Positions 12,801 to 60,857 of a DNA stretch of 64,000 nt are shown here, piece by piece (positions within the stretch are counted from its first letter, which is position 1; the number at the start of each line of letters is the position of its first letter). Below the pieces are notes generated by a model. The model saw only the letters and a list, made by a program, of their open reading frames with translations, did no database searches and had not been told where the DNA came from. This DNA is from Bugula neritina. Its lineage: Eukaryota > Bryozoa > Gymnolaemata > Cheilostomatida > Bugulidae. The position numbers and the translations under genes are program-made. The stretch is from the NCBI GenBank assembly GCA_964035545.1, contig OZ037767.1, forward strand, positions 62,001 to 126,000, read 5' to 3'.

Positions 12801-14713
12801 AACACTATACACATACCAGCACACCTCTAACACTACACACATACCAGCACACCTCTAGAGTAACTTAGTACTGGATCACCATTAACACTTACCATAGATA
12901 AGTAAGCCTTCCTTTCCTCTAGATTGTTCTTCACCCAAGCCATTGCTGCCACGAAGACCTGCTCTTCATTCTGAACATTCAACTCATCACTAGAGATGAT
13001 GTCTATGAGCTGATTGAGAGGCAGCAACATGAACTCCTCGCTGTCCATGACCTCACTGAAGTGACTCTGCGTAAACTTATCGGCAGCACGAAGCAGCTCG
13101 CGGCAAGCGTGAGTGTCGGCAAACGCACGGATTCCCAGAACATTGGACGGCGCGAGTTGCTGCTTGAGGAACTCACAGCAAATGTTCTGTATTTCCTTGA
13201 GGTGGAGTATGCAGGCAGCGGGCAGCAGTGTCTGTACGTTGGATTCCTCCACCACAACGTGAGCAGTGTAGCAGAAGTCTAGAATATAGAAATCTATAAG
13301 CAGTGTAGCAGAAGTCTAGAATATAGAAATCTATAAGCAGTGTAGCAGAAGTCTAGAATATAGAAATCTATAGGCAGTGTAGCAGAAGTCTAGAGTATAG
13401 AAATCTATAAGCAGTGTAGTAGAAGTCTAGAATATAGAAATCTATAGGCAGTGTAGCAGAAGTCTAGAGTATAGAAATCTATAGGCAGTGTAGCAGAAGT
13501 CTAGAGTATAGAAATCTATAAGCAGTGTAGTAGAAGTCTAGAATATAGAAATCTATAGGCAGTGTAGCAGAAGTCTAGAATATAGAAATCTATAGGCAGT
13601 GTAGCAGAAGTCTAGAATATAGAAATCTATAGGCAGTGTAGCAGAAGTCTAGAGTATAGAAATCTATAGGCAGTGTAGCAGAAGTCTAGAGTATAGAAAT
13701 CTATAAGCAGTGTAGTAGAAGTCTAGAATATAGAAATCTATAGGCAGTGTAGCAGAAGTCTAGAATATAGAAATCTATAGGCAGTGTAGCAGAAGTATAG
13801 AATATAGAAATCTATAGAAAGATGTGAAACAGAAATATCTGAGAATAAACTGACCTATTAGAGTTTGTAGCGCCATTTCATCAACATCTTTGATAGTGAC
13901 TTCCGTTTGCTTGCTTTCAGCCAGTTCACCTGTAAACATAATATTACCTGTAAACATGGTATCACCTGTAAACATAGTATTACCAATAAACATAATATTA
14001 CCTGTAAACATAATATTACCTGTAAACATGGTATCGCCTGTAAACATAGTATTACCAATAAACATAATATTACCTGTAAACATAATATTACCTGTAAACA
14101 TGGTGTTACCTGTAAACATAGTATTACCTGTAAACATAATATTACCTGTAAACATAATATTACCTGTAAACATAGTATTACCTGTAAACATAATATTACC
14201 TGTAAACATAATATTACCTGTAAACATAATATTACCTGTAAACATAATATTACCTGTAAACATGGTATCACCTGTAAACATAGTGTTACCAATAAACATA
14301 ATATTACCTGTAAACATAATATTACCTGTAAACATAGTATTACCTGTAAACATAGTATTACCTGTAAACATAGTATTACCTGTAAACATGGCACAGAAGT
14401 ACGGACTGCAAGCGGACAACACAACTTTATGAGCCGGGATTCTATGATTGCCAACGCAAATGGTGACGTCACAGAGTTCGTGGCGCTTGTAGAGGAGACA
14501 CATGGACTCAAGGAAATGGCGCGGGTGTTTGTCTGAGGTATAGGAGAGGTGGCCAGCTTGGCGTACTTGGCTGGCCAGAGTGTGGTTGTCGTTGAGTAGG
14601 GCAGGGGAGTAGGATAGTTGCAGCCCCAGAGATGAAGCATGACTAGAGGAAAGGTCATTTGAGGAGATCGTATTCGCTGATGACGTTACGTCAATATTCA
14701 TAACTTTTCTCAT
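9809..14713 (-). CDS. KLHL20: KLHL20-like BTB-BACK-Kelch protein
   Basis: Seven exons on the minus strand: 14380-14713, 13855-13929, 12893-13278, 11900-12110, 10842-11025, 10249-10735 and 9809-9997. Phases agree throughout and give 621 residues, close to the roughly 609 of vertebrate KLHL20. BTB spans about 65-175 ([20 protein letters not shown]). BACK spans about 180-300 ([28 protein letters not shown]). Six Kelch repeats follow from about 336 ([33 protein letters not shown]). KLHL20 proteins are substrate adaptors of Cullin-3 ubiquitin ligases, with BTB binding CUL3 and Kelch holding the substrate. The match runs through the linker ([24 protein letters not shown]), so orthology rather than a generic KLHL is likely. 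Introns 1 and 2 are built from repeats that span the splice sites. The gene is convergent with the bZIP gene. Confidence 0.93.
10032..10230. repeat. 39-bp array in KLHL20-like intron 6
   Basis: About five units built from ACACCACACCAACATATAAC and CACTGACACACC fill most of the intron between the last two Kelch exons. Confidence 0.85.
11085..11893. repeat. 18-bp array in KLHL20-like intron 4
   Basis: About 45 copies of GTAGAGAGTATATAGTTA, with shorter 13-bp lapses and GCAGAGAGTAAACAGTTA variants. The array reaches to within a few bases of the donor (GCTG|GTAGGTTTAC on the minus strand, at 11899), and the donor-proximal GTTTACTCTC is itself the unit sequence. Confidence 0.92.
12140..12855. repeat. 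28-bp array in KLHL20-like intron 3
   Basis: About 26 copies of a 28-bp unit containing CAGCACACCTCTAACACTAT. Units alternate between ACACATAC and ACACACAC endings in blocks, indicating block duplication. Confidence 0.92.
13262..13815. repeat. 37-bp array spanning the intron 2 acceptor of the KLHL20-like gene
   Basis: About 15 copies of a 37-bp unit. On the coding (minus) strand each unit reads TATATTCTAG|ACTTCTGCTA, followed by CACTGC: the intron 3' end, the AG and the first bases of exon 3. The true exon starts at 13278. All other units are upstream pseudo-acceptors, some altered. Confidence 0.93.
13930..14379. repeat. 18-bp array that is the whole of KLHL20-like intron 1
   Basis: The intron is 450 nt, exactly 25 units of GTAATACTATGTTTACAG on the minus strand. 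Each unit starts with a GT donor and ends with an AG acceptor. Variants (ATACC, AATATTA, TTTATTG) do not introduce stops in the BTB frame. Confidence 0.95.
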
Positions 14714-16880: not shown

Positions 16881-17205
16881 ATGATAGAAGAGGTAAGGTT
16901 TGGACATTGCTTCTAGTTCTGTCTCTTTGATAACTCTTCTGTGCTCTTTTCATAAGTTGTCACTCGCTTTCCTTGAATTATTATCACTTTTCGATAAAAT
17001 CAGCCTTTGATACTTTTCACTAGATAAAAATTGTACAACTTTGTGTTATGGAGTTGTGTGATGTAATGATTTTAGATGATTTGTTCAGAAGTAAAAACGC
17101 AACGGTGTAATGTTAGTGCATACACTAGACAGGTATGATAAGGTAAGGTGTATTGTTGCTTCTATAGTTGTAATATCATAACATAACCACACTATTCATT
17201 CCTAG

Positions 17206-20200
17206 AGTAATAGTCAACACATGCTGTCTAAGATGGATCAACATAATATATCTGATTTCCCTCAACAATCAGAGGCTAAGAGAGGACTCTGCACTAATCA
17301 CGTGACACTGGAATGTTTAGTAGAGAAGATGATACTATCATTTGGTAGGTGATGACTTGAGAAAGTGTGAATTGTAGACTATTATATACAATGGTTATAT
17401 ACAATGGTTATATACAATGGTTATATACAATGGTAATATACAATGGTAATATACAATGGTTATATACAATGGTAATATACAATGGTAATATACAATGGTT
17501 ATGTACAATGGTACTATACAATGGTAATATACAATGGTAATATACAATGGTTATATACAATGGTTATATACAATGGTAATATACAATGGTTATATACAAT
17601 AGTTATATACAATAGTTATATACAATGGTAATATACAATGGTTATGTACAATGGTACTATACAATGGTAATATACAATGGTAATATACAATGGTAATATA
17701 CAATGGTTATGTACAATGGTACTATACAATGGTAATATACAATGGTAATATACAATGGTTATATACAATGGTTATATACAATAGTTATATACAATGGTTA
17801 TATACAATGGTTATATACAATGGTAATATACAATGGTTATATACAATGGTTATATACAATAGTTATATACAATGGTAATATACAATGGTAATATACAATG
17901 GTTATGTACAATGGTACTATACAATGGTAATATACAATGGTAATATACAATGGTTATATACAATGGTTATATACAATGGTTATATACAATGCTTATATAC
18001 AATGGTTATATACAATGGTTATATACAATGGTTATATACAATGGTTATATACAATGGTTATATACAATGGTTATATGGACATCTTTGCTTATCACAGACA
18101 TAGAAACTGGAACTTTGCCAGCAGAGAAAGTCTCAGATGTGAGAACTATTCTGTCAGCCCACCAGTGGTTCACCAGCTCCTTGCATCTGTTCAGTGCTAT
18201 TACTAGCCAGGTTGTGTTACATTCTCCCAGGGGAAGACACACTAAGCTACAGTCATATGCAGTAAGTAGATATAATATAAGTTACAGTCATATAGAGTAA
18301 GTAGATATAATATAAGTTACAGTCATATAGAGTAAGTAGATATAATATAAGTTACAGTCATGTAGAGTAAGTAGATATAATATAAGTTACAGTCATATAG
18401 AGTAAGTATATATAATATAAGTTACAGTCATATAGAGTAAGTATATAATTTAATATAAGTTACAGTCATATAGAGTAAGTATATATAATATAAGTTACAG
18501 TCATATAGAGTAAGTATATAATTTAATATAAGTTACAGTCATGTAGAGTAAGTATATATAATATAAGTTACAGTCATATAGAGTAAGTAGATATAATATA
18601 AGTTACAGTCATGTAGAGTAAGTATATATAATATAAGTTACATTCATATAGAGTAAGTAGATATAATATAAGTTACAGTCATACAGAGTAAGTATATATA
18701 ATATAAGTTACAGTCATATAGAGTAAGTATATAATATAAGTTACAGTCATATAGAGTAAGTATATATAATATAAGTTACAGTCATATAGAGTAAGTAGAT
18801 ATAATTTAGTTCTCCAGAAAGCTGCAGTGTGTATGCAGTGACGCCTCGCTGAGGGAGAGACATAACAAATGTCTGCAGCAGTTAGAAAATAAAAACTCAG
18901 TTGCTACTCTTGGCGGCCCAGTCTCAGAGCGGAAGGACTTGACCCCCACCCCCAATTCTCTGGTGAGCAACCAGAGTACCAAAGACTCCAAAAACTCCGA
19001 GAGATGCCATCTGGTGTGCCATGTTTTGAGGTGAATGCTTATACTGAATCCACGACATTTCGAAAATGACAGTTGGAAAACACCAATTGGAAAATGACAT
19101 TTGGAAAATGAAGAATGTTCAAGATGGTCTAGTCCAGAGGGGGCACTTAGTATCTGGTCGGGTTCCAAATAGCTTTTGTAAATGTGAACAATTTAAAATT
19201 AAAACTACTCGGTAACTAATTCTACTTCAATGATAGCCTAACTGATTCAGCCATTATATTTATTTTTAAAAGCTATTTTAGAATTGACCAGATACCAAAC
19301 AACCCTTCAAAACTAGATCATGTTGAATAATTTTCCTTTTCCAAATGTCTATTTTCCAAATGTCTATTTTCTAATTGTCCATTTTCTAATTGTTCATTTC
19401 CCAAATAGCTGTTTTCCAATTATCATTTTCAAAATGTCGTGTCACCGCTTAGACTAGCTATAGTTTGTGTGTTTCAGAGACATTTAGTAGTTTATGGTGT
19501 GCTCTATCATCATATGTCTCAATAGTTGGTTGCTATGGAGATGAAATAGTCTTAGTAATCAACTACAGGTACTGGATGGAGACGTATCCTCACCACTTCC
19601 AATCCTGTCCACAACTATTATCAGCCTTGAAAAAGTTCAGAAAAGCCATTGCCAGCAATAACATGCCTAATCACCTGGTGTCTTCACTCAACTTCTGTGA
19701 GTTGTTTGCTCTCTAGGAATTTGTTTATTGATAGTGCTAACATTGTCTAGTATCATTATTACTCTATACTGCAGTTATTATAGATGCAATGTATGATTCA
19801 TATTCAAATAATTTAATATCAAATCAGCTCCATCTGCCAAGGCTGATATTTCTAAGGTGTATCTTTCACCATCGCTAGGTAACACTTGCAACTTTCCATA
19901 CCCGTTCTTAAAATACCACAGTACTTGCTGTGCGAGGTGTAGGTAATGACTGTCACATCACATGCACCTGCCTGTCACAGCACACCTGCTTGTCACAGCA
20001 TACCTGCTGGTCACATGCACCTGCCTGTCACAGCATACCTGCTTGTCACAGCACACCTGCTGGTCACATGATACCTGCTTAATGCCACATAATACCTGCC
20101 TGTCACAGTACACCTGCTGGTCACAGCATACCTGCTTGTCACATAATACCTGCCTGTCACATGATACCTGCCTGTCACATAATGCCTGCCTGTCACATGA

Positions 20201-23200
20201 TACCTGCCTGTCACATGATACCTGGTTGCCACATAATACCTGCTATCCACTATCTAATTCCAGTAAAATGGCACAAGTGGAAAAGTAGGTAAAAATGTCA
20301 CATTTTCAATATTAGAGTTTGGGGATGTAGGCTTGAGTTTAGGGTTTGGGGTTTGGGAAAACTTTACATCAGCTTGCCATTTTACCTACTTTCGATTTGT
20401 GGCATTTTTACCTAAAATTGTGGCATGCATTAGCAGTGTCAGTCGTTTTCAATAACATTTGAATAACTATTCATTCCTCAAGACAGGCTAAGTTTTAACT
20501 AATGCACTTTGCAAGTGGTAAGCTGTTGTAAAAACTGAATCATTTTGATATCAAATCTAACCATTACTTTGACTATTTGAGGCAGTTTCAGACCGGATCT
20601 ATAAGTTGATTCAAAGCTAAATGCTGGTAGCGAGAAGCAGCGATTCTCTCAAACTAATGATTTACCAGCAGCTTCTGGTTTTATACATTACAGATCAAAT
20701 TCAGTCTGGCTGTTGGGCACAAAAAAGAAAATCAAAAGCTAAGCTCCTAAAGATCTGTCGCGCAGCTAATCAGAGTAAACAAAGAACATCTTTAATCATT
20801 GAAAATCTAAATTGTGAAGAGTTGGCAATACATCTGAGTTACATAGACTACCAAGTGTGCAGTGACATCACTGTGAGTATACCAACTTATAACACCCGAT
20901 AGATAGATATAGATATATTGCATATGCTCAAACTCAATCTCTTGCTTTCATTAGTTTGAAGATTGCAAGAAATATGCCAAGACATCTTCGATGGATGGCA
21001 TCCCTCACTTGGAGAGATCAGTAACTGTTTTTAATGGACTCACTCAGTGGATACAGCTAATGGTACTGTCAAAGAGTAGTGCTAAGGAGAGAGCAATAAT
21101 CATAACAAGATTTCTTCAAACCGCCCAGGTGCGTGTTTTCTCATTTTATTTTATATATTTACACTTTGTTACATGGCTTGTGATCTAAATATTTGATTTA
21201 AAAGTGTTCCCTTTTCAATAGTACATATCAGCACCCTCCCCTTTCAGTAATAAGGATTCATGTTGCTTCTTGCTCATAAAAGGAAAGGATGTTATGTTAG
21301 TATTTTACAACTATGATGAAAGAATACAAATGGTACTTGTTACTGCACATGGTGTAATTTTACTTTGACAGCATCTAGTGAAAATGAGAAGTTTTAACAC
21401 AGCAATGGCTGTAGTTGGGAGTATAACCCACAGTTGTATTGTGAGACTCCATAAAACTTTCAGCCATCTTTCCCCTGCGACACAGAAGGTGGGCGTTACA
21501 AATACTTCTAATTAACATTATATATAATATATGTGTGTGTGTGTGTGTATGTGAGTGTGTGTGTGTGTGTGTGTATATGTATGTGTGTGTATGTATGTAT
21601 ATATGTGTGTGTGTGTGTGTGTGTATCTATACTGTTACTTTGAATGATGACAGATACTAGAAGAGCTCTCAGAGCTGGTGTCAGCGAAAAACAACTACCA
21701 GAACTACAGGAAGTTAATCAACTCGCTGACTGAAGACAGCTCCTTCTACTATCCAATCGTGTGAGTTGTTACTATAACATAGTACTGTATACTCTGTTAC
21801 TATATAACATAGTACTGTATACTCTGTTACTATAACGTAGTACTGTATACTCTGTTACTATAACGTAGTACTGTATACTCTGTTACTATAACATAGTACT
21901 GTATACTCTGTTACTATAACGTAGTACTGTATACTCTGTTACTATAACGTAGTACTGTATACTCTGTCACTGTAACATAGTACTGTATACTCTGTTACTA
22001 TAACATAGTACTGTATACTCTGTTACTATAACATAGTACTGTATACTCTGTTACTATATATACATACATGCATATGCAGAGGCATTCATCTGAAAGACCT
22101 CGTAGCAGTGAACTCGGCTCACGCTGACACAGTAGGAGAGGCAGCACAATGTCTCAACTTTCACAAACTGACCTTGATATCAGACGTAATGTCACGCCTC
22201 ATCTGTCTCCACTCTCTCCCTTTTCTGCACCGAGTGACCCCGGATATCCTGGACACACTCAACTTTGCTATAGACATCTTTTATTCTGATGAGGAAATCT
22301 ACCAGCGGTCTTTATCTAGAGAGCCCCGTGTCAGTCAGCCCAGCAGTGTGGTATTGCAACGCTATTACTATATGATACTGTGTGATACTATACTGTATGA
22401 TATGCTATACTATGTAATACTATATGATGTGCTATATATATGATATTATATGATATTATATGATATACTATGCTATATAATACCATATGATATATTATCT
22501 GATACTATAATTATGATACACTATATGATATACTATATGATATACTATATGATACTATACCATATGATATACTATATGATACTATATGATATATTATATG
22601 ATACTATACAATATACTATACAATATACTATAATGTGCTATGTAATACTATATGATAATTTAGATACCAGTCCCTCATCTCAACTCATCTCAGTTCACTC
22701 TCACTTCTTCTTGGAGAAATGCTTGCAGACCTCCTGATGAGTCTATGATTAACAAACACATATCCAGTATGGTTAAGGTACGTGTACTATATAATATATA
22801 CTATATACTATATACTATATACTATACACTATACACTATACACTATACACTATACACTATACACTATACACTATATACTATATACTATATACTATATACT
22901 ATATACTATACACTATACACTATACACTATACACTATACACTATACACTATATACTATATACTATATACTATATACTATATACTATATACTATGTACTAT
23001 ATACTATATACTATATACTATGTACTATGTACTATATACTATATACTATATACTATACACTATACACTGTATAGAGAGTGTATAAATATATAAATAAAGT
23101 GTGTGTTGAAGGCTATATTTAGGAATGGTGTGTGTTGAAGGCTATATTTAGAAATGGTGTGTGTTGAAGGCTATATTTAGAAACTATGATGATGACCGAG

Positions 23201-29333: not shown

Positions 29334-29379
<46 letters not shown>

Positions 29380-32300
29380 CACACACACACACACACGCAC
29401 GCACACACACGCACACACACACATGCACACACACACACACACACGCACGCACACACACGCACGCACACACACACACGCACACACACACATGCACACACAC
29501 ACACACACACGCACACACGCACACACGCACACACGCACACACGCACACACGCACACACACACATGCACCACATACACATTATAGTTTTCTCCAACAATCA
29601 TTTCGTTATTTCAGCTTATCATCAAACGTCAACATTTGATACATACTTTAATTCATCAAGTTATCCATCTGTTATATTTCTTCAGTTTAGCTTCATACGG
29701 TCCTAACGCCATGTTCCTACCAATGTGTATGACACTAAGAATGACAGCTGGCGCAGGTTCTTCTGCACTCACTGTGGCAGGTACTACCATGTTGTTGAAA
29801 GTGTCATCATTCAAAGTTGGCACTGTTACTGTGAGTATATAGTACCGTTACTATGAGTATATAGTACTATTACTATGAGTATATAGTACTGTTACTATGA
29901 GTATATAGTACTGTTACTATGAGTATATAATACTATTACTATGAGTATATAGTACCGTTACTATGAGTATATAGTACTATTACTATGAGTATATAGTACT
30001 GTTACTATGAGTATATAATACTATTAATATGAGTATATAGTACCGTTACTATGAGTATGTAGTACTATTACTATGAGTATATAGTACTATTACTATGAGT
30101 ATATAGTACTATTACTATGAGTATATAGTACTATTACTATGAGTATATAGTACTGTTACTATGAGTATATAATACTATTACTATGAGTATATAGTACCGT
30201 TACTATGAGTATGTAGTACTATTACTATGAGTATATAGTACTATTACTATGAGTATATAGTACTATTACTATGAGTATATAGTACTATTACTATGAGTAT
30301 ATAGTACTGTTACTATGAGTATATAATACTATTACTATGAGTATATAGTACCGTTACTATGAGTATATAGTACTATTACTATGAGTATATAGTACTGTTA
30401 CTATGAGTATTCAATACTGTTTCCAGGGCTTAGCTGAAATGATAATTGGAGCATCTTATGCTTCTGGTCCAATGATAGGCTCCGCCATATACATGGTGAG
30501 TTGCATTCTGGGTAATATATAATACTGTTTCAGTTAGGAGGATATACTAGTGTATTCTGGGTAATATATAATACTGTTTCAGTTAGGAGGATATACTAGT
30601 GTATTCTGGGTAATATATAATACTGTTTCAGTTAGGAGGATATACTAGTGTATTCTGGGTAATATATAATACTGTTTCAGCTAGGAGGATATACTAGTGT
30701 ATTCTGGGTAATATATAATACTGTTTCAGTTAGGAGGATATACTAGTGTATTCTGGGTAATATATAATACTGTTTCAGTTAGGAGGATATACTAGTGCAT
30801 TCTGGGTAATATATAATACTGTTTCAGTTAGGAGGATACACTAGTGTATTCTGGGTAATATATAATACTGTTTCAGTTAGGAGGATATACTAGTGTATTC
30901 TGGGTAATGGGAGGAGTTACAGCCATGCTAACTCTTATCCAAGTATTTGTTGACGTCAAAGTTGGTAAGTTAATATTGTATTGGTTAGTTGTATTGGTTA
31001 GTTGTATTGGTTAGTTGTGTTGGTTAGTTGTATTGGTTAGTTGTATTGGCTAGTTGTATTGACTAGTTGTATTGGTTAGTTGTATTGGTTAGTTGTATTG
31101 GTTAGTTGTGTTGGTTAGTTGTATTGGTTAGTTGTGTTGGTTAGTTGTGTTGGTTAGTTGTGTTGGTTAGTTGTATTGGTTAGTTGTATTGGTTAGTTGT
31201 GTTGGTTAGTTGTGTTGGTTGGTTGTGTTGGTTAGTTGTATTGGTTAGTTGTATTGGTTAGTTGTATTGGTTAGCTGTATTGGTTAGCTGTATTGGTTAG
31301 TTGTATTGGTTAGTTGTATTGGTTAGTTGTACTGGTTAGTTGTATTGGTTAGTTGTATTGGTTAGTTGTATTGGTTAGTTGTATTGGTTAGTTGTATTGG
31401 TTAGTTGTATTGGTTAGTTGTATTGACTAGTTGTATTGGTTAGTTGTATTGGTTAGTTGTATTGGTTAGTTGTGTTGGTTAGTTGTGTTGGTTAGTTGTG
31501 TTGGTTAGTTGTATTGGTTAGTTGTATTGGTTAGTTGTATTGGTTAGCTGTATTGGTTAGTTGTATTGGTTAGTTGTATTGGTTAGTTGTACTGGTTAGT
31601 TGTATTGGTTAGTTGTATTGGTTAGTTGTATTGGTTAGTTGTATTGGCTAGTTGTATTGACTAGTTGTATTGGTTAGTTGTGTTGGTTAGTTGTATTGGT
31701 TAGTTGTATTGGCTAGTTGTATTGACTAGTTGTTTTGGTTAGTTGTATTGGCTAGTTGTACTGGTTAGTTGTACTGGTTAGTTGTATTGGTTAGTTGTAT
31801 TGGTTAGTTGTATTGGTTAGTTGTATTGACTAGTTGTATTGGTTAGTTGTATTGGTTAGTTGTATTGGTTAGTTGTATTGATTAGTTGTATTGGCTAGTT
31901 GTATTGACTAGTTGTATTGGTTAGTTGTATTGGTTAGTTGTATTGGTTAGTTGTATTGGTTAGTTGTATTGGTTAGTTGTATTGGTTAGTTGTATTGGTT
32001 AGTTGTATTGGTTAGTTGTGTTGGTTAGTTGTATTGGTTAGTTGTATTGACTAGTTGTATTGGTTAGTTGTATTGGTTAGTTGTATTGGTTAGTTGTATT
32101 GGTTAGTTGTATTGGCTAGTTGTATTGACTAGTTGTATTGGTTAGTTGTGTTGGTTAGTTGTATTGGTTAGTTGTATTGGCTAGTTGTATTGACTAGTTG
32201 TATTGGTTAGTTGTATTGGTTAGTTGTATTGGTTAGTTGTATTGGTTAGTTGTATTGGCTAGTTGTATTGACTAGTTGTATTGGTTAGTTGTGTTGGTTA

Positions 32301-35300
32301 GTTGTATTGGTTAGTTGTATTGGCTAGTTGTATTGACTAGTTGTATTGGTTAGTTGTATTGGCTAGTTGTACTGGTTAGTTGTATTGGTTAGTTGTATTG
32401 GTTAGTTGTATTGGTTAGTTGTATTGGTTAGTTGTATTGACTAGTTGTATTGGTTAGTTGTATTGGCTAGTTGTACTGGTTAGTTGTACTGGTTAGTTGT
32501 ATTGGTTAGTTGTATTGGTTAGTTGTATTGGTTAGTTGTATTGACTAGTTGTATTGGTTAGTTGTATTGGTTAGTTGTATTGGTTAGTTGTATTGGTTAG
32601 TTGTATTGGTTAGTTGTATTGGTTAGTTGTATTGGTTAGTTGTAATGGTTAGTTGTACTGGTTAGTTGTATTGGTTAGTTGTACTGGTTAGTTGTACTGG
32701 TTAGTTGTATTGGTTAGTTGTATTGGTTAGTTGTATTGACTATTTAAACTTAGTAATATAGTAATATAGTGATATATTAAGATAGTAATATTGCAATATA
32801 GTAATATAGTGTCATTGTTCTACAGCTCCACTTATTGTAGTTTCAGAAGAAAAGTCAGAAAAGAACTTTTTTCAACTCTTGAAGATACCAAGTATTCTCT
32901 TTCTCTACTTTCTCAGCTTCTTCCACAGATTTGTTTCCTATGCCAGGATAACCACATTCGGTGACTTTCTCTTAATAGCTGTAAGTAATATGGAATAAAC
33001 TATATTTAGATTATATATAGCTGACACCTAGTTTGGTTATATATAGCTGATACCTAGTTTAATTATATATAGCTGACACCTAGTTTGGTTATATATAGTT
33101 GACACCTAGTTTAATTATATATAGCTGACACCTAGTTTAATTATATATAGTTGACACCTAGTTTAATTATATATAGCTGACACCTAGTTTAATTATATAT
33201 AGCTGACACCTAGTTTGGTTATATATAGTTGACACCTAGTTTAATTATATATAGCTGACACCTAGTTTAATTATATATAGCTGACAACTAGTTTGGTTAT
33301 ATATAGTTGACACCTAGTTTAATTATATATAGCTGACACCTAGTTTAATTATATATAGCTGACACCTAGTTTGGTTATATATAGTTGACACCTAGTTTAA
33401 TTATATGTAGCTGATACCTAGTTTAATTTTATATAGCTGACACCTAGTTTGGTTATATATAGTTGACACCTAGTTTAATTATATATAGCTGACACCTAGT
33501 TTAATTATATATAGCTGACACCTAGTTTGGTTATATATAGGTGACACCTAGTTTAATTATATATAGCTGACACCTAGTTTAATTATATATAGCTGACACC
33601 TAGTTTGGTTATATATAGTTGACACCTAGTTTAATTATATATAGCTGACACCTAGTTTAATTATATATAGCTGACACCTAGTTTGGTTATATATAGTTGA
33701 CACCTAGTTTAATTATATATAGCTGACACCTAGTTTGATTATATATAGTTGACACCTAGTTTGGTTATATATAGTTGACACCTAGTTTAATTATATATAG
33801 CTGACACCTAGTTTGGTTATATATAGCTGACACCTAGTTTAATTATATATAGCTGACACCTAGTTTGGTTATATATAGCTGACACCTAGTTTGGTTATAT
33901 ATAGCTGATACTGTCACTCCTTATAACATCTTATCTCATCGAATGAAAGTGTTTATATGGTGTTATATTGTGTTACATTGTGTTATATTGTGTTAAATTG
34001 TGTTATATTGTGTTAAATTGTGTTATATTGTGTTAAAGTGTGTTATATTGTGTTATATTGTGTTATATTGTGTTATATTGTGTTATATTGTGTTATATTG
34101 TGCTACGTAGTGTTATATTGCGCTATGTTGTGTTATATTGTGTTATATTGTGCTATTTTTTGTTATGTTGTGTTACATTGTGTTATATTGTGTTACATTG
34201 TGTTATATTGTGTTAAATTGTGTTATATCGTGTTATATTGTGCTATTTTTTGTTATATTGTGTTACATTGTGTTATATTGATCTCCGTATAGTATTATAT
34301 ATTGTGCTATATATTATTATAATGTGTTATAGTGTTATAGTAGTTTATATTTTCTCTTTCAAATTTTTCTAATAAAAACATTGATATTATAGCTCTATAA
34401 TTTCTAGTTTGACCAAGCTGATTGGGTGATTGGACTTTCCTACTCCGTATGGGCTGTGATGTATATGATAGCCTGTCTTATTACTGCCAAGTTTGTCAAC
34501 AAGGTGTGTCGATATGCTGTCTATATTCTGTCTATATACTGTCTATACACTGTCTATACACTGTCTATACTCTGTCTATACACTGTCTATACTCTGTCTA
34601 TACTCTGTCTATACACTGTCTATACTCTGTCTATACTCTGTCTATACTCTATTTATACTCTCTCTATACTCTGTCTATACTCTCTCTATACTCTGTTTAT
34701 ACTCTATCTGTACTCTCTCTGTACTCTGTCTATACTTTGTCTATATTCTGTCTATACACTGTCTATACTCTGTCTATCCTGTGTCCATGCTAGCTTTAGT
34801 TCTGAATGATACACACCTATGCTAAGGAGGGGAACTACCAATGTATCTAGCAGCAACCCTCACCTGATCTGTTTTTGTAGAATTATGTCTATTCCTGCAT
34901 GTTAATGGCGTGGCTAGTAAACAGCCTGATCTATTTGTTCCTTGCCCCTTCACCTTTACTGGATTTTCTGTTTCATACAAACCAGTAAGTTTAGTGATAC
35001 CACGGTACATTGACTGTAATATGTTGTTGATATACTACGGTACATTGACTGTAATATGTTGTTGATATGCTACGGTAAATTGACTGTAATATGCTGTTGA
35101 TATACAATGGTACATTGACTGTGATATGTTGTTGATATACTACGGTACATTGACTGTAATATGTTGTTGATATACTACGGTACATTGACTGTAATATGTT
35201 GTTGATATGCTACGGTAAATTGACTGTAATATGCTGTTGATATACAATGGTACATTGACTGTGATATGTTGTTGATATACTACGGTACATTGACTGTAAT

Positions 35301-43097: not shown

Positions 43098-46000
43098 ATG
43101 GAGTCTAACACCCCCTTATTGCAGTCACAAGAATACGGGACAGACTCTAACACCCCCCTACTACAGTCACAAGAATACGGGACAGATTCTAACACCCTCT
43201 TACTACAGTCACAAGAATACGGGACAGACTCTAACACCCCCTTATTGCAGTCACAAGAATACGGGACAGACTCTAACACCCCCCTACTTCAGTCACAAGA
43301 AGCTGTAGAAAGACAGTCTAATGAACCCACAGAGTCTCTATCTAAAAGAAAAGAGGTGTTTCTCTTTACAGTCATCTTAGGATCTCAGTTTATGTCCTCT
43401 ACTATTGACACTTTCTTATTTCCCTTTTTCTCCAAAGAAGCGACAAGAAAGGGGCTGAATCAGTCAGAAGTTGGTCTTGTGTTTTCATCTTTTGAAATTT
43501 CCAGATTTCTGTGTTCTTTGCTGGTTGGAAAGTTGGTGAGTGGTTTAAGGACAGTTCATAAAGAATCTATAGATAGTCTACAGATAGTCTATAAATAGTC
43601 TATAGATAATCTATAGATAGTCTATAAACAGTCTATAATTAGTCTATAATTATAGATGGTCTGTAAACAATATTATAATACACTGTATTTATATACTATA
43701 GTACTATACTGTATACACTATATACACCATACTACTATACTACACTGTATATATACTATACTATTATACTATACTGTATATATACTATACTATTATACTA
43801 TACTGTATACATACTATACTATATTATACTATACTATTATACTATACTATTATACTATACTGTATATATACTATACTATTATACTATACTGTATATATAC
43901 TATACTATTATACTATACTGTATATATACTATACTACTATACTATACTGTATATATACTATACTATTATACTATACTATATATATACTATACTATTATAC
44001 TATACTGTATATATACTATACTATTATACTATACTGTATATATACTATACTATTATACTATACTATATATACTATACTATTATACTATACTGTATATATA
44101 CTATACTATATTATACTATACTATTATACTATACTATTATACTATACTGTATATATACTATACTATTATACTATACTGTATATATACTATACTATTATAC
44201 TATACTGTATATATACTATACTACTATACTATACTGTATATATACTATACTATTATACTATACTATATATACTATACTATTATACTATACTGTATATATA
44301 CTATACTATTATACTATACTATATATATACTATACTATTATACTATACTATTATACTATACTGTATATATACTATACTATTATACTATACTGTATATATA
44401 CTATACTATTATACTATACTATATATATACTATACTATTATACTATACTATTATACTATACTGTATATATACTATACTATTATACTATACTGTATATATA
44501 CTATACTATTATACTATACTATATATATACTATACTATTATACTATACTATTATACTATACTATATAATATTATACTATTCACTCTAGATCGCAGCACTT
44601 CCCTTAAGAATCTGGTGCCTCATTGGTTCAGCTGTGACTGCCATATCCTGTGTATCATTTGGGTAGGTAAAGGTCACTTGGGTAGGTGAAGGTCATTTAG
44701 GTAGGTGAAGGTCATTTGGGTAAGTAAAGGTCATTTGGGTAGGTAAAGGTCACTTGGGTAGGTAAAGGTCATTTGGGTAGGTGAAGGTCACTTGGGTAGG
44801 TGAAGGTCATTTGGGTAGGTGTACATCATATTATATTTGTTGTATTCAACAGTTACAGTTAACATCTTCCAAGCAATCCTAATCAAGTTTTTTTTGAATA
44901 ATAAACAATAAAATATAATTAGTAATTTGACTGTGTGCTTATGGAAAGAAATACACTTAATAAATCTGGATATTTACCGTCCGTAGCCATCTTAGCAGTT
45001 CTGATAGGCCAATGTACTTTTCTCAAAGGTTATTTAGTAGTAATACACAAATCTTATGTCTGCATGACTCCATAGCAACCTGTAAACAATACTCCATAGC
45101 AACCTGTCTGCAGCCAACATTTCTGATGCCCAGTTGGTATTAGAAGTTGTGCTCCCTGTAATGTTACATCATTTAACCTAATTGTTAAGAGCAGCTCGGC
45201 ATAGAACTTACAGTTTGTCACATCAAGTAACGCTGCTAGATACATATCAAGTGTTATCTGTTTATAAAATCCATCAACATTTGATACATACTTTAATTCA
45301 TCAAGTTATCCATCTGTTATATTTCTTCAGTTTAGCTTCATACGGTCCTAACGCCATGTTCCTACCAATGTGTATGACACTAAGAATGACAGCTGGCGCA
45401 GGTTCTTCTGCACTCACTGTGGCAGGTACTACCATGTTGTTGAAAGTGTCATCATTCAAAGTTGGCACTGTTACTGTGAGTATATAGTACCGTTACTATG
45501 AGTATATAGTACTATTACTATGAGTATATAGTACTGTTACTATGAGTATGTAGTACTATTACTATGAGTATATAATACTATTACTATGAGTATATAGTAC
45601 TGTTACTATGAGTATATAGTACTATTACTATGAGTATATAGTACTATTATTGTGAGTATATAGTACTGTTACTATGAGTATATAGTACTGTTACTATGAG
45701 TTATAGTACTGTTACTATGTGTATATAGTACTGTTACTATGAGTATTCAATACTGTTTCCAGGGCTTAGCTGAAATGATAATTGGAGCATCTTATGCTTC
45801 TGGTCCAATGATAGGCTCCGCAATATACATGGTGAGTTGCATTCTGGGTAATATATAATACTGTTTCAGTTAGGAGGATATACTAATGTATTCTGGGTAA
45901 TATATAATACTGTTTCAGTTAGGAGGATATACTAATGTATTCTGGGTAATATATAATACTGTTTCAGTTAGGAGGATATACTAGTGTATTCTGGGTAATA

Positions 46001-49000
46001 TATAATACTGTTTCAGTTAGGAGGATATACTAGTGTATTCTGGGTAATATATAATACTGTTTCAGTTAGGAGGATATACTAGTGTATTCTGGGTAATATA
46101 TAATACTGTTTCAGTTAGGAGGATATACTAGTGTATTCTGGGTAATATATAATACTGTTTCAGTTAGGAGGATATACTAGTGTATTCTGGGTAATGGGAG
46201 GAGTTACAGCTGCTTTGACATTCCTTTTATCACTGCTACACGTGACAGTTGGTAAGTACATTGTATTATGACTATAGTAAGGATCATAACAATGGCCGAC
46301 ATACTGTGGTTGTCTCTTCCTGTATTGAAGAACTCCTTCAGCTGTAACTTTATAGAATTTAGCTGCAGAAACCAACTCTACAAAAGAGAAACACAGTTTG
46401 GCTTTGCTGAAGACCAAGAGCATTCCTTTTCTGTATCTCCTCACCTTTGTACACAGATTTGTTTCCTTTGCCAGGACCTCCATGCTTGGAGCTTTCCTTA
46501 TTAGTACGGTAAGAGTGAAATCATCCACTCTCATCTCTCAGCCTGTTCTTTATTCTCCATGCTATATGCTAAAGATTTAATAATAAACTAGAGGATAGCA
46601 GAGCTTAGTGTTTGAGATACTACCTATTATTAGCTACTAGTCCTGGCAATGCAATGCAGGTCATATTTCTGTTCAGCTGTCACTATGGAAATCACCTGCA
46701 GGCATTTGTTCAACATAATGACCAAAAGCATGGAAAACTGTCTCTTGTAACAAATGAGGCTGGTGCAGATATTTGGTGAAAGTATTTGAAAAATGACATC
46801 AGCAATGTGGCATTTACCAATCTCCAATAATTACAGTTTGACCAAGCTGATTGGGTGATTGGATTTTCCTACTCCGTATGGGCTGTGATGTACATGGTAG
46901 CCTGTCTTTTCACTGCCAAGTTTGTCAACAAGGTGTGTCCATGCGTAAATTTGTATTTTCTTAATCTATTTTAAATTTTGATTGATTTCAGTTGAGTTTC
47001 ATAGCATAGCAGTTCAACAATGTTACCATGTCGTAGGGCATAATCATGTGTCAACAGATTCTCTCACGTGTCAACAGATTCTTTCACGTGTCCACAGATT
47101 CTCTCATATGTCAACACATACTCTCATGTGTCAACAGATTCTCTCATGTGTCAACAGATTCTCTCACGTGTTAACAGATTCTCTCACGTGTTAACAGATT
47201 CTCTCACGTGTCCACAGATTCTCTCATATGTCAACAGATATGCACTACATAGTAATGTATATATTGTAGAACTATTTATATGTATATACCACATAGTAAT
47301 GTATATATTGTAGAACTATGTATATGTATATACTACATAGTAATGTATATATTGTAGAACTATTTATATGTATATACTACATAGTAATGTATATATTGTA
47401 GAACTATGTATATGTATATACTACATAGTAGTGTATATATTGTAGAACTATTTATATGTATATACCACATAGTAATGTATATATTGTAGAACTATGTATA
47501 TGTATATACTACATAGTAATGTATATATTGTAGAACTATTTATATGTATATACTACATAGTAATGTATATATTGTAGAACTATGTATATGTATATACTAC
47601 ATAGTAGTGTATATATTGTAGAACTATTTATATGTATATACCACATAGTAATGTATATATTGTAGAACTATGTATATGTATATACTACATAGTAATGTAT
47701 ATATTGTAGAACTATGTATATGTATATACTACATAGTAATGTATATATTGTAGAACTATTTATATGTATATACCACATAGTAATGTATATATTGTAGAAC
47801 TATGTATATGTATATACTACATAGTAATGTATATATTGTAGAACTATGTATATGTATATACTACATAGTAATGTATATATTGTAGAACTATTTATATGTA
47901 TATACCACATAGTAATGTATATATTGTAGAACTATGTATATGTATATACTACATAGTAATGTATATATTGTAGAACTATGTATATGTATATACTACATAG
48001 TAATGTATATATTGTAGAACTATGTATATGTATATACCACATAGTAATGTATATATTGTAGAACTATGTATATGTATATACTACATAGTAATGTATATAT
48101 TGTAGAACTATGTATATGTATATACTACATAGTAATGTATATATTGTAGAACTATGTATATGTATATACCACATAGTAATGTATATATTGTAGAACTATG
48201 TATATGTATATACTACATAGTAATGTATATATTGTAGAACTATGTATATGTATATACTACATAGTAATGTATATATTGTAGAACTATGTATATGTATATA
48301 CTACATAGTAATGTATATATTGTAGAACTATGTATATGTATATACTACATAGTAATGTATATATTGTAGAACTATGTATATGTATATACTACATAGTAGT
48401 GTATATATTGTAGAACTATGTATATGTATATACTACATAGTAATGTATATATTGTAGAACTATGTATATGTATATACCACATAGTAATGTATATATTGTA
48501 GAACTATGTATACTCATGTATGCTAGTTGCGTGGCTCTTCAACTCATTCTGCTATCTGTTTCTCGCTCCCTCCCCGGTGTTGGATTTCATATTTCATGGC
48601 CACAAGTAAGTGGATTTTACTGTAATTTATATACTATCTATACTGTTGATATACCCGCTATACTGTTGATATACTATCTATACTGTTGATATACTATCTA
48701 TACTGTTGATACACTCTCTATACTGTTGATATACTCTCTATACTGTTGATATACTATCTATACTGTTGACGCTATACTTCTGCAGGTATTTCCCGATGAC
48801 CTTTGCTGCCTTGCTGCTGGTGAATGTGGTGGATACCGGGCAACTGATTCCCCTGTTTCAAGCTGTGCTCAACATTCTTATGTGAGTATATCTCAGCTTG
48901 CACCTCTACTAACCACGCCCTCCCCAATAATCCCCCCTCCCCCCCCCCCCCCCCCCAGTAACCACACCCTCTCCAATGTGGTGACTATATAGTCAATATT

Positions 49001-51575: not shown

Positions 51576-51581
51576 AATAAA
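51576..51581 (+). terminator. Candidate poly(A) signal, MFS copy 2
   Basis: AATAAA lies 191 nt after the stop codon, before the satellite arrays. Confidence 0.5.
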
Positions 51582-51729
51582 TCAGCCATAATAAGCTAAA
51601 TATATAAGGGTAAAACTATTTCTAATACACAGTTTGCACACAGATTCTGCTTGTTACTGATACTAATACAACAATATATAGTTTCTTACAAAAATAGACT
51701 AGTTGAGCTATATGATATAGTGTAGAGTG

Positions 51730-52975: not shown

Positions 52976-53059
52976 AGCATAACAGACCAGGAGAGTAATA
53001 ATCAATATAATTGCAGTCAGCCACTCTGCAGTCTCAAGTATCAGTTTCCTACAGCACTT

Positions 53060-55645: not shown

Positions 55646-56035
55646 AGAAGTAAAGGAAGTTGGGTGTTTGACCTGAGTACATTCACATCAACCCACAGGG
55701 ATAGAAGCTCTTTACTGTATACACATTATGAGCTCTTGAATATATACAATGAAATGAATCCACCATGTTGAGGGTCCTATTCAGAATACTCGAGGGTCCT
55801 ATTCAGAATAGTCGAGGGTCCTACTTAGGATAGCCTAGGGTCTTGTTGTTTCAGCAGAGCTGTAAACTTTGAGCTAGTAATGCTGTGCAAACTGAAAGAT
55901 CAGGAAACTCTATGAATTGATTATTTAAATAAAGTTGGCTGTTTTCATATAAAACTTGTTGAAAATCTGAAGAGTTTACCATTAAAACTCTTTACTTGAA
56001 ACAATCAGGAGGAAAACATAATATTCTGGCAGCAG

Positions 56036-56140
56036 TGATACTCTGGTAGCAGCAATACTCTGGTAGCAGTAATACTCTGGCAGCAGTGATACTCTGGTAG
56101 CAGTAATACTCTGGCAGCAGTGATACTCTGGTAGCAGCAA
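56036..56140. repeat. 17-bp array in the DEG/ENaC 5' leader
   Basis: Six to seven copies of ATACTCTGGTAGCAGCA or AGCAGTA forms, ending about 25 bp before the start codon. Confidence 0.88.
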
Positions 56141-56162
56141 TAAAGCCAAATTGGGAAATAAT

Positions 56163-56682
56163 ATGAATTTCTCAGCAGAGGAAAATGAAAAATCTGACAA
56201 GAAAACGCCAACATGGGAGGAGTTTACACAAGAAGTTACAATGCATGGTATTCGTTACGTACATCTAAGTCACTTACACCCTGTGATGAGGTAAGTAACT
56301 TACACCCTGTGATGAGGTAAGTAACTTACACCCTGTGATAAGGTAAGTCACTTACACTCTGTGATGAGGTAAGTCACTTACACTCTGTGATGAGGTAAGT
56401 CACTTACACCCTGTGATGAGGTACGTAAGTTATACTATTAGTATGATGATATGATATAGACACTGTTTTAGCTTAGAGCCCTGATATGAAGTGAGTATTT
56501 CTAGCTTTGGAACCACAAATTGTGTCAGTACGTATGTTTTCAGGGTGGTGTGGCTGCTAGCCATTCTGGCAATGCTCACTATCGGAGTATACGGCTCATG
56601 GGAACTTTTTGAAAGTTACTTGTTGAAAGAAACCTCGACTAAGTATAGAAATGTCAGAACCACTGAGTTGCAGGTCAGTTTT

Positions 56683-56772
<90 letters not shown>

Positions 56773-59700
56773 TCATAATATGATATTCTCACATACACTC
56801 TTACAGTTCCCCCATGTAATAATATGCAACAACAATGCCTTTCCCAAAAGCCAAATTCAGACAGCCATAAACACCTACAACGTCACTGGACTGGATGTCC
56901 TTCTGAAAAATCTCTTCAGTCGCGGTATTTCTGTCACTCACCTGTAAGTTATTATATACAGTATATACACTAAGCTGATTCCACAGTAGTATATACACTG
57001 TAAGTATCTGCACTGTAAGTATATACACTGTAAGTATATACACTGTAAGTATCTGCACTGTAAGTATATACACTGTAAGTATCTACATTGTAAGTATCTA
57101 CACTGTAAGTATATACACTGTAAGTATCTACATTGTAAGTATATACACTGTAAGTATATACACTGTAAGTATATACACTGTAGGTATATACACTGTAAGT
57201 ATCTACACTGTAAGTGTAAGTTATATTGTGATCTACTCTAGCAACTGGAGCTCCCCCGAGTACAAGAATCTAGGTCGGATAATTGAGGAGGATTTTCTGA
57301 GTTCCCTGTTTGACTTGTCGTCTGAAGTGACGGCTTCCATACTCTTCCCGCACTTTCAGAATGAACCTCTTGATGTCAGAGAGAACTTCCTGCCAATCAT
57401 CACGGATATTGGTATGACATCATCACTATTTGCTGTGCTATGTGATTCAGTCAAAAGTTACTATTGGTATGACATCATCACTATTTGCTGTGCTATGTTG
57501 TTCAGTCAACAGGTACCATTGGTACGACATCATCACTATTTGCTGTGCTATGTGATTCAGTCAAAAGTTACTATTGGTATGACATCATCACTATTTGCTG
57601 TGCTATGTTATTCAGTCAACAGTTACTATTGGTATGACATCATCACTATATGCTGTGCTATGTTATTCAGTCAACAGTTATTATTGGTATGACATCATCA
57701 CTATTGGTATGACATCATCACTATTTGCTATGTTATTGTATGCAGTCTACAGTTGCTATTGGTATGACATCATCACTATTTGCTGTGCTATGTTATTCAG
57801 TCAACAGTTACTATTAGTATGACATCATCACTATATGCTGTGGTTTAAGGGGTCTGCTACAGTTTCAATGCAGATGGTAAATACAAAGTCAAGACTGCTG
57901 GTCTCTACAGTGGACTCTTGGTCTATCTCAATGCAGACGTAGACTCTTACTTTGTGGGGCCGGCATCTGATTCTAATGGCTTCTCAGTGAGTTATATGTC
58001 AGTGTGCTTATATTACTAGTCAGTATGCATATATTACTAGTCAGTATGCATATATTGCTAGTCAGTATGCATATATTACTAGTCAGTGTGCATATATTAC
58101 TAGTCAGTATGCATATATTACTAGTCCGTATGCATATATTGCTAGTCAGTATGCATATATTACTAGTCAGTATGCATATATTACTAGTCAGTGTGCATAT
58201 ATTACTAGTCAGTATGCATATATTACTAGTCCGTATGCATATATTGCTAGTCAGTATGCATATATTACTAGTCAGTATGCATATATTACTAGTCAGTATG
58301 CATATATTACTAGTCAGTATGCATATATTACTAGTCAGTATTCATATATTACTAGTCAGTATGCATATATTACTAGTCAGCATGCATATTATATTGTCGC
58401 TTGTGTTTCTTATACTTTATTATCAGATTGCTGTTTACAAACCTGGAGAAGTACCAGTGATGAATAACGATGCTATTATAGGGGTTTACCCAGGAACTAA
58501 CACTAAAGTCTCTCTAGAACTCACCAAGGTAACCTCCCCTCCCCATAAAATACCAATTATGATCTCAAGCTATTAGCTAGCAGCAGTTGCATTAATTCAT
58601 ACAAATTTTATTACTTTTAAGAATCGAATTGACACAAGCTTCTATATAATATTACGTGTTTATATGCTACATGCACAAGTTGCAACTAATAGACTTATTA
58701 ATTGCTAACAGATAAAGAGGCAGCCGCCTCCTGCTGACAACAATACTGCTGACTGTTTTGATACTGAGACTAAACCCAACCCCCTCAGCTTCTACCCAGA
58801 GTACTCTTACAACGCTTGTTACATGGAGTGTGCTTCAAATATCTCTGTGGAGAGATGCGGGTGTCGCCATTTCTTTGAGCCTGGTAATACTGTATATACT
58901 ATACCTCTATACTGTATATATTATACCCCTATACAGTATATACTATACCCCTATACAGTATATACTATACCCCTATACAGTATATACTATACCCTACACT
59001 GTATATACTATACCCCTATACAGTATATACTGTGTATACTATACCCCTATACAGTATATACTATACCCCTATACAGTGTATACTATACCTCTATACAGTA
59101 TATACTATACCCCTATACAGTATATACTATACCCCTATACAGTATATACTATACCCTACACTGTATATACTATACCCCCTATACAGTATATACTATACCC
59201 TATACTGTGTATACTATACCCCTATACTGTATATACTATATCCTTATACTGTATATATTAAAATATACTCCTACACTGTATTTATCATACTCTTACACTG
59301 TATATATTATAATCTTATACTGTATATATTATACTCTTATACTGTATATATTATGATAATATACTGTAAAATTTTATTAAAAGCTGTGAATGGAGCCAAG
59401 ATCTGTGACCCAGAAACTTTTTCCACTTGCATCCTGAATGTTGGTAAGTCTATCTACACATGTGCTAGTATATAATATACACATGTTAGTATATAATATA
59501 CACATGTTAGTATATAATATACACATGCTAGTATATAATATACACATGTGCTAGTATATAATATACACATGTTAATATATAATATACACATGTTAGTATA
59601 TAATATACACATGCTAGTATATAATATACACATGCTAGTATATAATATACACATGCTAGTACATAATATACACGTGCTAGTATATAATATACACGTGCTA

Positions 59701-60857
59701 GTATATAATATACACATGCTAGTATATAATATACACATGCTAGTATATAATATACACATGTTAGTATATTATAATATATACGCCTTAGTATATAATATAC
59801 ACACGCTAGTATATAATGCACACATGCTAGTGTATAATACACACATGCTAGTATATAATACGCACATGCTAGTATATAATATACACGTGCTAGTATATAA
59901 TATACACATGTTAGTATATAATATACACATGCTAGTATATAATATACACGTGCTAGTATATAATATACACATGCTAGTATATAATACGCACATGCTAGTA
60001 TATAATATACACATGTTAGTATATAATATACACATGCTAGTATATAATATACACATGCTAGTTAGTATTCTACAGGATTTTCAACTCTACGTGAAGCACT
60101 GGAGAAGAAGTGTGGATGTCGGAGTGCATGTGAAGAGGAGAAGTACTCTGCCCACTTGATGGTGCATCAGTATCCAAATATAAACTTCCTTGCAGAACTT
60201 TACCAGGATGTCTGTGAGTGTTCTCTCTCTCTTTCTCAAACTCACACACTCACACACAAATATACACACTCACACACACACGCACACGCACACGCTCACG
60301 CTCACACACACACACACACATTTGTTTACATGTTTTAGTAACGAATGAAATTATAGAATCCATGAAAAAGAATACGATGCTGGTTTACATATCTTTCAAT
60401 TCCATAACCTACAACTTCCTGGAGGAGTATCTTTCATACACGGCGATTGACGTGTTGGGTAAGTCTATATATATATAATAGAATCTTAAAGGCATTATAT
60501 AATGAAGGTACAGCTGTTTGCGAATCATTGCCTGTGGTATTATGTATATTGTCTGTGGTATTATCTATATTGCCTGTGGTATTATATATATTGCCTGTGG
60601 TATTATATATATTGCCTGTGGTATTATATATATTGCCTATGGTATTATATATATTGCCTGTGGTATTATATATATTGGCAGCTAATTTTGGAGGAACTCT
60701 GGGTCTGTGTATTGGAGCCAGTCTACTGACAATCTGTGAGTTTATACAGTTTGGAGTATTCAGTCTCATCAGATGTATCAACAGGAAGAGAGAACAGGAG
60801 AGTAGAAAGAATGTAATACACGTACAGGTGGAACCTACCAAGGCTAGAGTCGGATAA
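56163..60857 (+). CDS. DEG/ENaC-family ion channel subunit
   Basis: Eleven exons: 56163-56290, 56544-56673, 56807-56943, 57242-57411, 57850-57986, 58427-58528, 58712-58883, 59384-59443, 60076-60213, 60339-60458 and 60682-60857. Phases agree and give 489 residues, a normal family length. Cytosolic N terminus with the gating HG motif (MHGIRYV, about 29-35). TM1 about 43-62 (VVWLLAILAMLTIGVYGSW). Family signature FPHVIICNNN just after TM1. Extracellular region with GVCYSFN and the cysteine motif YSYNACYMECAS...CGCRHFFEP, then CGCRSACEEEKY. TM2 with the selectivity-filter GAS (GGTLGLCIGASLLTICEF, about 435-452). A basic C-terminal tail follows. Such channels are trimeric, amiloride-sensitive cation (often Na+) channels gated by acid, peptides or force; gating here is unknown. 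Every intron except 6 and the short ones carries an array. Confidence 0.92.
56273..56430. repeat. 26-bp array spanning the intron 1 donor of the DEG/ENaC gene
   Basis: Six donors at exact 26-bp spacing (56291, 56317, 56343, 56369, 56395, 56421). Each copy repeats the exon tail CTTACACCCTGTGATGAG and then GTAAGT (GTACGT in the last). Only the first donor keeps the frame without an early stop. Confidence 0.95.
56689..56768. repeat. (TA)n microsatellite in DEG/ENaC intron 2
   Basis: About 40 uninterrupted TA dinucleotides. The length may be unstable or collapsed. Confidence 0.95.
56955..57215. repeat. 15-bp array from the intron 3 donor of the DEG/ENaC gene
   Basis: About 16 copies of CACTGTAAGTATATA. 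The native junction is CACCT|GTAAGTTAT, so each unit carries the exon tail CAC and an intact GTAAGT. Confidence 0.9.
57405..57840. repeat. 55-bp array spanning the intron 4 donor of the DEG/ENaC gene
   Basis: About eight units. The junction GATATTG|GTATGACATC recurs as CTATTGGTATGACATCATCA in each unit, and most units end GTCAACAGTTAC, with an AG. The donor sequence GGTATGA is intact in nearly all copies. Confidence 0.93.
57990..58395. repeat. 21-bp array in DEG/ENaC intron 5
   Basis: About 19 copies of AGTCAGTATGCATATATTAC plus T, beginning within 15 bases of the donor TCA|GTGAGTTATATG. Confidence 0.92.
58885..59360. repeat. About 20-bp TATACCCCTATACAGTATAC array in DEG/ENaC intron 7
   Basis: About 24 units of TATACTATACCCCTATACAG type with shorter ACCCTACACTG forms. 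It starts two bases after the donor. Confidence 0.9.
59455..60062. repeat. 21-bp array in DEG/ENaC intron 8
   Basis: About 29 copies of ACATGCTAGTATATAATATA plus C, filling the intron from donor to acceptor. Confidence 0.93.
60233..60322. repeat. CA-rich microsatellite in DEG/ENaC intron 9
   Basis: An imperfect (CA)n with CTCACA and CGCACA interruptions, near the exon 10 acceptor. Confidence 0.88.
60528..60677. repeat. 21-bp array in DEG/ENaC intron 10
   Basis: About seven copies of TGTGGTATTATATATATTGC plus C. The last one ends as the acceptor ATATTGGCAG|CTAATT, so the array abuts the exon. Confidence 0.92.

Follow-up and report, generated by a model that had tools for sequence, protein, structure and literature searches.

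Genes and tandem arrays of the window

The window analysed here is a stretch of 64,000 nucleotides (nt) from the bryozoan Bugula neritina (contig OZ037767.1, C3:62001-126000, in an assembly of 215.8 Mb; positions are those of the window unless C3 is stated), in which short tandem repeats fill most introns and several arrays run across an exon-intron junction. Tandem arrays hold 52% of its bases. Six genes were modelled by hand (bZIP, KLHL20, RasGRP, MFS copies 1 and 2, hereafter MFS1 and MFS2, and DEG/ENaC), comprising 53 introns, and all six models are free of internal stops. In these genes, the arrays called by Tandem Repeats Finder (TRF) cover 65% of the bases in introns and 8% of those in exons, at least one array being present in 46 of the 53 introns. 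The seven array-free introns measure 82, 106, 106, 111, 183, 243 and 328 nt (median 111), a set in which the lack of arrays may itself favour short introns. By eye, the repeat units of different genes look unrelated.

Pfam domains were found in all five proteins searched, those of every gene except MFS2, with bZIP represented by its last 158 amino acids. The RasGRP model aligned to RasGRP1 over 27-578, DEG/ENaC to ASIC1 and KLHL20 to the KLHL20 kelch structure, the alignment with KLHL3 being ungapped across KLHL20 introns 1 and 2. A purpose-written spliced aligner guided by a Watersipora ASIC recovered all ten DEG/ENaC introns. For RasGRP, each of two guides recovered eight of the 12 modelled introns, plus others that were not accepted (22 and 19 introns in total), and the guides conflict in the REM region, placing the intron 2 donor either at 18262 (7.0 bits) or at 18211 (-2.1 bits), a position that would put the whole array within the intron. 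This border is the least settled among the longer overlaps: the donor is most likely 18262, the acceptor is provisional, and 7.7 bits were obtained for the donor within the second copy of the array (18297). The nearest named relatives of the DEG/ENaC and RasGRP proteins come from another bryozoan, Watersipora subatra (40% identity over 98% of the protein and 51% over 71%, respectively); both of these relatives (P0001 and P0005) lie on one contig of 66,307,180 bases, so their linkage may be conserved. None of the 7995 candidates scored matched the MFS1 protein, and a search of Rfam gave nothing at gathering scores.

Arrays that span exon-intron junctions

An array was counted as crossing when it reached at least 5 nt into an exon. 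Across the 53 introns, 13 junctions are crossed, 11 of them by at least 8 nt, with overlaps of 5-32 nt (Table 1). When exon flanks were swapped among introns (100 trials, 5 nt), the mean number of crossings was 0.64 and the maximum 2, which rejects chance resemblance to the splice-site consensus as their source. The crossing arrays of introns 3 and 4 were counted once for the two MFS copies because they lie in near-identical tracts (about 97-98% identity, compared with 60-95% for exons outside them), and the idea of treating them as separate births in each copy was dropped. In this way, 11 independent cases are obtained, six at donors and five at acceptors, with one unsettled border in each group (RasGRP intron 2 and bZIP intron 2); nine cases are left if these two are set aside. 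Also, in the DEG/ENaC paralogues 3-6 (DEG3-6), whose exon borders rest on the DEG/ENaC protein of the window as sole guide, nine of 76 junctions (38 introns) are crossed, compared with a flank-swap mean of 0.51 and a maximum of 2. The junction-spanning geometry of the arrays is confirmed as real.

The first-pass annotation of this DNA had listed 14 crossing junctions, and 12 of them are found here; the remaining two, in MFS1 intron 5 and DEG/ENaC intron 3, were removed, as their arrays begin within the intron. Its remark that units of unrelated genes share a common geometry agrees with the 11 independent cases, whose units are apparently unrelated.

Table 1. Tandem arrays at or near splice junctions, and arrays lying in coding sequence
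Feature	Position (strand)	Array	Relation to the junction
KLHL20 intron 1 (14379-13930)	13928..14389 (-)	25 x 18 bp, unit ATGTTTACAG|GTAATAYT with variants	donor crossed, 10 nt into exon 1
KLHL20 intron 2	13263..13817 (-)	37 bp, 15 copies	acceptor crossed, 16 nt into exon 3
RasGRP intron 2	18243..18805 (+)	35 bp, 16 copies	donor crossed by 19 nt if donor is 18262, 23 nt with the hand-modelled border
RasGRP intron 9 (taken as intron 10 of the first-pass annotation)	23099..23183 (+)	29 bp, 2.9 copies	acceptor crossed by 14 nt
MFS1 intron 3	29822..30410 (+)	22 bp	donor crossed by 9 exon nt
MFS1 intron 4	30505..30908 (+)	49 bp	acceptor crossed by 32 exon nt; 9 intron nt outside the array
MFS2 intron 2	44655..44821 (+)	19 bp	donor crossed by 8 exon nt
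MFS2 intron 3	45467..45757 (+)	22 bp, as in MFS1 (shared tract)	donor crossed by 9 nt
MFS2 intron 4	45841..46195 (+)	49 bp, as in MFS1 (shared tract)	acceptor crossed by 32 nt
MFS2 intron 7	47244..48512 (+)	44 bp	acceptor crossed by 11 exon nt
DEG/ENaC intron 1	56266..56423 (+)	26 bp, 6.1 copies	donor crossed by 25 exon nt
DEG/ENaC intron 4	57407..57842 (+)	55 bp	donor crossed by 5 exon nt (shortest overlap)
bZIP intron 2 (absent from the first-pass list)	5438..5629 (+)	period 25/50 bp	about 7 exon nt over an acceptor not firmly placed (score -5.9)
MFS1 intron 5	30976..32738 (+)	13 bp, 135.6 copies	non-crossing, starts 11 nt inside the intron
DEG/ENaC intron 3	56988..57215 (+)	15 bp	non-crossing, starts 44 nt inside the intron
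Coding minisatellites (n=5)	3310-3445, 3575-3657, 24512-24614, 27583-27703, 43104-43301	periods divisible by 3	

Crossing rate under even array starts

The number of crossings was compared with a model in which an array has an equal chance of starting anywhere overlapping its intron, each intron being collapsed to one unit per array. The counts omit MFS2 introns 3 and 4 and the first array of MFS2 intron 1 (which MFS1 also has), the second half of the array in MFS1 intron 8, the near or partial copies DEG2, MFS3 and MFS4, and aligner introns at protein ends that were judged spurious (DEG3 introns 1-2, DEG5 intron 1, DEG6 intron 1 and DEG2 introns 7-11). In the window, 11 of 57 arrays cross, compared with 16.8 expected from the measured lengths and 11.7 with a floor of 106 nt for the ancestral intron; in DEG3-6, nine of 42 arrays cross, the corresponding expectations being 12.3 and 8.8. 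For both sets combined (20 of 99 arrays), even starts predict 23.5 crossings at a floor of 82 nt, 20.5 at 106 nt, 17.0 at 140 nt and 14.0 at 183 nt (P of so many, 0.052). With introns of 80-140 nt, the observed rate is the one that even starts give, so there is no need to invoke junction targeting at this size; if the introns were longer, there may be a modest excess. Moreover, among window arrays with units of at least 10 bp, 11 cross and 28 start no more than one unit inside the intron, a share below the approximately 43% crossing that even starts predict (one-sided P of so few, 0.04).

These counts do not support the locus-independent process that the first-pass annotation had proposed to seed arrays at splice junctions, given the 20 crossings for 20.5 expected at a floor of 106 nt. 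Slippage at R-loops, which it had offered as a mechanism, was dropped because the G skew is weak, with G outnumbering C on the coding strand in just 37 of the 62 arrays in introns (P=0.16). By contrast, its own alternative, that selection keeps a working outer junction, fits better than a junction-targeted start.

Reading frame and copies of the splice sites

The period is a multiple of 3 in five of five exonic arrays (four independent), which have a median of 4.5 copies, and in 19 of 62 intronic arrays, with a median of 13.9 copies. Among crossing arrays it is a multiple of 3 in only one of 11 in the window and two of nine in DEG3-6. The frame limitation holds for exonic arrays only, and the freedom of the crossing arrays from it fits their removal by splicing at the outermost copy of the junction. 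Within the arrays, the inner copies differ in how far they keep the splice dinucleotide: AG precedes seven of seven copies of the exon head in MFS1 intron 4 and GT follows five of six copies of the exon tail in DEG/ENaC intron 1, and in MFS1 intron 3 GT follows none of the 25 inner copies.

Array turnover between paralogues

Further MFS and DEG/ENaC copies were found in the stretches flanking the window. Downstream, at C3:131216-237765 (L012-L023), MFS and DEG/ENaC paralogues form a run in which the DEG/ENaC copies lie on both strands.

The birth of one junction-spanning array is visible between DEG/ENaC copies 1 and 2. Both copies have the donor-spanning 26-bp array of intron 1 (6.1 and 2.2 copies), whereas at the acceptor of the same intron copy 2 carries 2.8 copies of a 44-bp unit that includes 25 exon bases, a sequence present as a single unit in copy 1. 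By eye, the joint of this duplication shows a 2-bp match (TG), which suits slippage or microhomology-mediated repair and is proof of neither. Taking the DEG/ENaC copies together, eight of ten intron positions are crossed; at positions 42 and 345/348, crossing arrays occur in at least two lineages of copies.

MFS1 and MFS2 have common intron positions, yet at seven of ten introns the arrays differ or one copy is without an array; in intron 1, an older short array is common to both. Copy numbers also vary between paralogues, being 8.2, 7.2 and 21.2 for MFS intron 4 and, as given above, differing for DEG/ENaC intron 1.

Other features were observed in the MFS copies. They are a mosaic, with tracts of about 94-98% identity at 27578-28051, 29629-30923 and 34397-34510 lying between exons of 60-88%, which suggests gene conversion. 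At 41069, MFS1 intron 10 is apparently of the GC-AG type (ATG|GCAAGT), GT being found in MFS2. A Ty3/gypsy-like long terminal repeat retrotransposon (35380-40190), with an open reading frame of 1308 amino acids whose best PDB match is Ty3 Gag-Pol, lies within MFS1 intron 8, flanked by two arrays of similar 33-35 bp units. In MFS2 intron 9 (49830-49955), two inverted arms, each roughly 40 bp long, flank 'caccaaaccaaacaactccacaagatatgtagat'; this inverted repeat was recognized by eye and is perhaps a small transposon.

KLHL20 intron 1 as a candidate new intron

KLHL20 intron 1 consists of its array and nothing else, being exactly 25 x 18 bp (450 nt), open in frame and with AG|GT in 22 of 26 unit copies (the 25 of the intron and the one at the exon end). 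This is the anatomy of Rogers-type intron gain, in which a segment containing AG|GT is repeated in tandem, and since all of these sites are in frame, splicing between any two of them would give a readable protein. Among the 20 matches listed for the N-terminal part of KLHL20, 16 fall outside KLHL20 in the same genome, and 11 of these 16 span residues 53-77 of the query, which cover the positions of introns 1 and 2. In all 11 spanning matches listed, the numbers of codons and residues differ by no more than 11, leaving no room for an ordinary intron at either position; seven hold no stop and four hold 1-4 each. Inspection of the listed spanning match with the greatest identity, at C2, showed no break at either position and introns elsewhere. 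The array of intron 2 likewise spans a junction, and none of the 11 listed matches is interrupted at the position of this intron.

On this sequence evidence, it is conceivable, if rather doubtful, that frequent minisatellite birth also yields new introns, in which case KLHL20 intron 1 would have been born of a repeated coding segment (ATG TTT ACA G|GT ...) and intron 2 may be a second case. The odds are lowered because four of the 11 spanning matches hold stops.

Discussion

We consider it probable, at about 0.7, that minisatellites are made readily in this genome, that they start evenly in short introns and that selection decides which of them survive. Slippage or microhomology-mediated repair would probably create a tandem copy of a short segment (about 10-55 bp), and the resulting pair would then expand. 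The starts would be spread roughly evenly along introns originally of about 80-140 nt, and about one fifth of them would include a junction by geometry alone, because the units make up a sizeable share of such short introns. Selection would keep exonic arrays only if they are in frame and short, whereas junction-spanning arrays would persist as splicing uses the outermost copy, that is, the upstream-most donor or the downstream-most acceptor, leaving the mRNA unchanged.

Several results weigh against this explanation. The fit to even starts hinges on the ancestral intron length: with the measured lengths, 29.1 crossings are expected and the 20 observed are a significant deficit (P of so few, 0.009), while at a floor of 243 nt only 11.2 are expected and the excess is significant (P=0.004), an excess appearing only above about 180 nt. 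Moreover, array births are not blind to intron status, as the number of arrays per collapsed kb is 7.3 for introns compared with 2.35 for intergenic DNA (P=1e-6); unannotated constrained sequence in intergenic DNA may account for part of this roughly threefold difference, and array birth may be linked to transcription. T is in excess of A on the coding strand for 43 of the 62 arrays in introns (P=0.003). Also, splice scores are weak at some of the real junctions that are crossed, such as the KLHL20 intron 1 donor (4.3 bits, the median donor score being 8.5), the RasGRP intron 9 acceptor (-1.1, a low score at a site where both guides nevertheless place it) and the bZIP intron 2 acceptor given in Table 1. 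Finally, the collapsed lengths of KLHL20 introns 1 and 4, RasGRP intron 10 and MFS introns 3 and 4 are only 6-32 nt, too short for an ancestral intron, so that these introns either lost flanking sequence or arose anew.

Some of these points would be expected if a process tied to splice sites (R-loops, nearby breaks or slippage at splice motifs) made arrays start at junctions in preference to the rest of the intron. The one geometry of the 11 independent cases, the enrichment of arrays in introns, the excess for long ancestral introns and the separate crossing of DEG/ENaC positions 42 and 345/348 agree with such targeting, and the DEG/ENaC intron 1 unit begins at an exonic TAAGT identical to the TAAGT of the donor. 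However, the excess is absent for introns of 82-140 nt, the arrays that cross are fewer than those that start just inside, the DEG/ENaC crossings are scattered over most intron positions and the G skew is weak, and we consider this explanation unlikely. A little less likely still is that some crossing arrays are new introns, formed from a repeated AG|GT coding segment with dual-specific splice sites as in the Rogers model, KLHL20 intron 1 being the best candidate. The intron-free continuity of the 11 listed matches and the in-frame array of intron 1 speak for it, but these matches are scored candidates only, three of the 11 with E-values above 1e-7 in addition to the four with stops, the other KLHL genes may have lost the intron, and the 18-bp array might stay in the protein as hexapeptide repeats. 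For the window as a whole, six of the 11 independent crossing introns are at positions common to paralogues and are therefore not recent gains. That wrong exon borders or chance matches to the splice consensus mimic entry into exons is very improbable and already largely refuted. The unsettled borders of RasGRP intron 2 and bZIP intron 2 and the short overlaps, such as that of DEG/ENaC intron 4, do leave weak cases, but the flank-swap expectation is far below the observed count, overlaps reach 8-32 nt, several of them within codons aligned to relatives of solved structure, and the DEG/ENaC introns were all recovered with a different guide.

Minisatellites that span junctions are an already known type. 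Excerpts of PMC3087553 describe amphioxus "mirage" minisatellites that straddle exon-intron boundaries in Adh3 and in the globins BflGb6 and BflGb9, with Adh3 units quoted there as 10-72 bp and RT-PCR (reverse transcription PCR) suggesting normal splicing. The arrays reported here resemble them, as far as these excerpts go, in that units span the boundary at both donors and acceptors, many copies hold AG or GT and the unit lengths overlap. Unlike the mirages as described in that text, the present cases comprise 12 junctions of the first-pass list within one 64-kb window, their rate was compared with even starts and a birth is seen between paralogues, and they are known from genome sequence. 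A literature search did not find the phrase 'mirage minisatellite', and a search for bryozoa with minisatellite gave nothing on topic, as judged by titles and the beginnings of abstracts.

With respect to intron gain, array boundaries are reported as sites of intron formation in segmental duplications of the human genome (PMC2812944), intron gain has been described along with the expansion of repeats in Cryptococcus (PMC2395259), and for potato RdRp (RNA-dependent RNA polymerase; PMC4974935) it is reported to follow the Rogers model, with AG|GT segments duplicated in tandem. As in those cases, the duplications described here include splice signals, and KLHL20 intron 1 has the expected anatomy; the difference is that most independent crossing introns occupy the paralogue-shared positions mentioned above. 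Dual-specific splice sites are reported for the tandem-repeat genes UBC and VCX3A (PMC10809524), which KLHL20 intron 1 resembles in its 450 = 25 x 18 composition, its unit being a multiple of 3 and AGGT at both ends; unlike UBC, its 18-bp unit is shorter than a ubiquitin monomer, and a dual role as donor and acceptor is putative. Introners, dispersed elements that make introns, are a further known system, in which related intron sequences occur in many genes. For context, PMC8527503 gives 13% of the Hormiphora genome as repeats called by TRF, and the passages of PMC4039745 treat minisatellites and splicing in Caenorhabditis elegans, junction-spanning units not being its subject.

In the genes examined, most introns are enlarged by short tandem repeats, and about one fifth of the arrays include a piece of exon together with the splice site, so that what has been described for a few genes of amphioxus can be commonplace in the genes of another, repeat-rich genome. 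The even-start model offers a simple quantitative null for deciding when a special mechanism is needed, and introns full of intact decoy splice sites are a test of how the spliceosome chooses the outermost one. In this bryozoan genome, the growth of introns by tandem duplication, and possibly their birth, can be observed between close paralogues.

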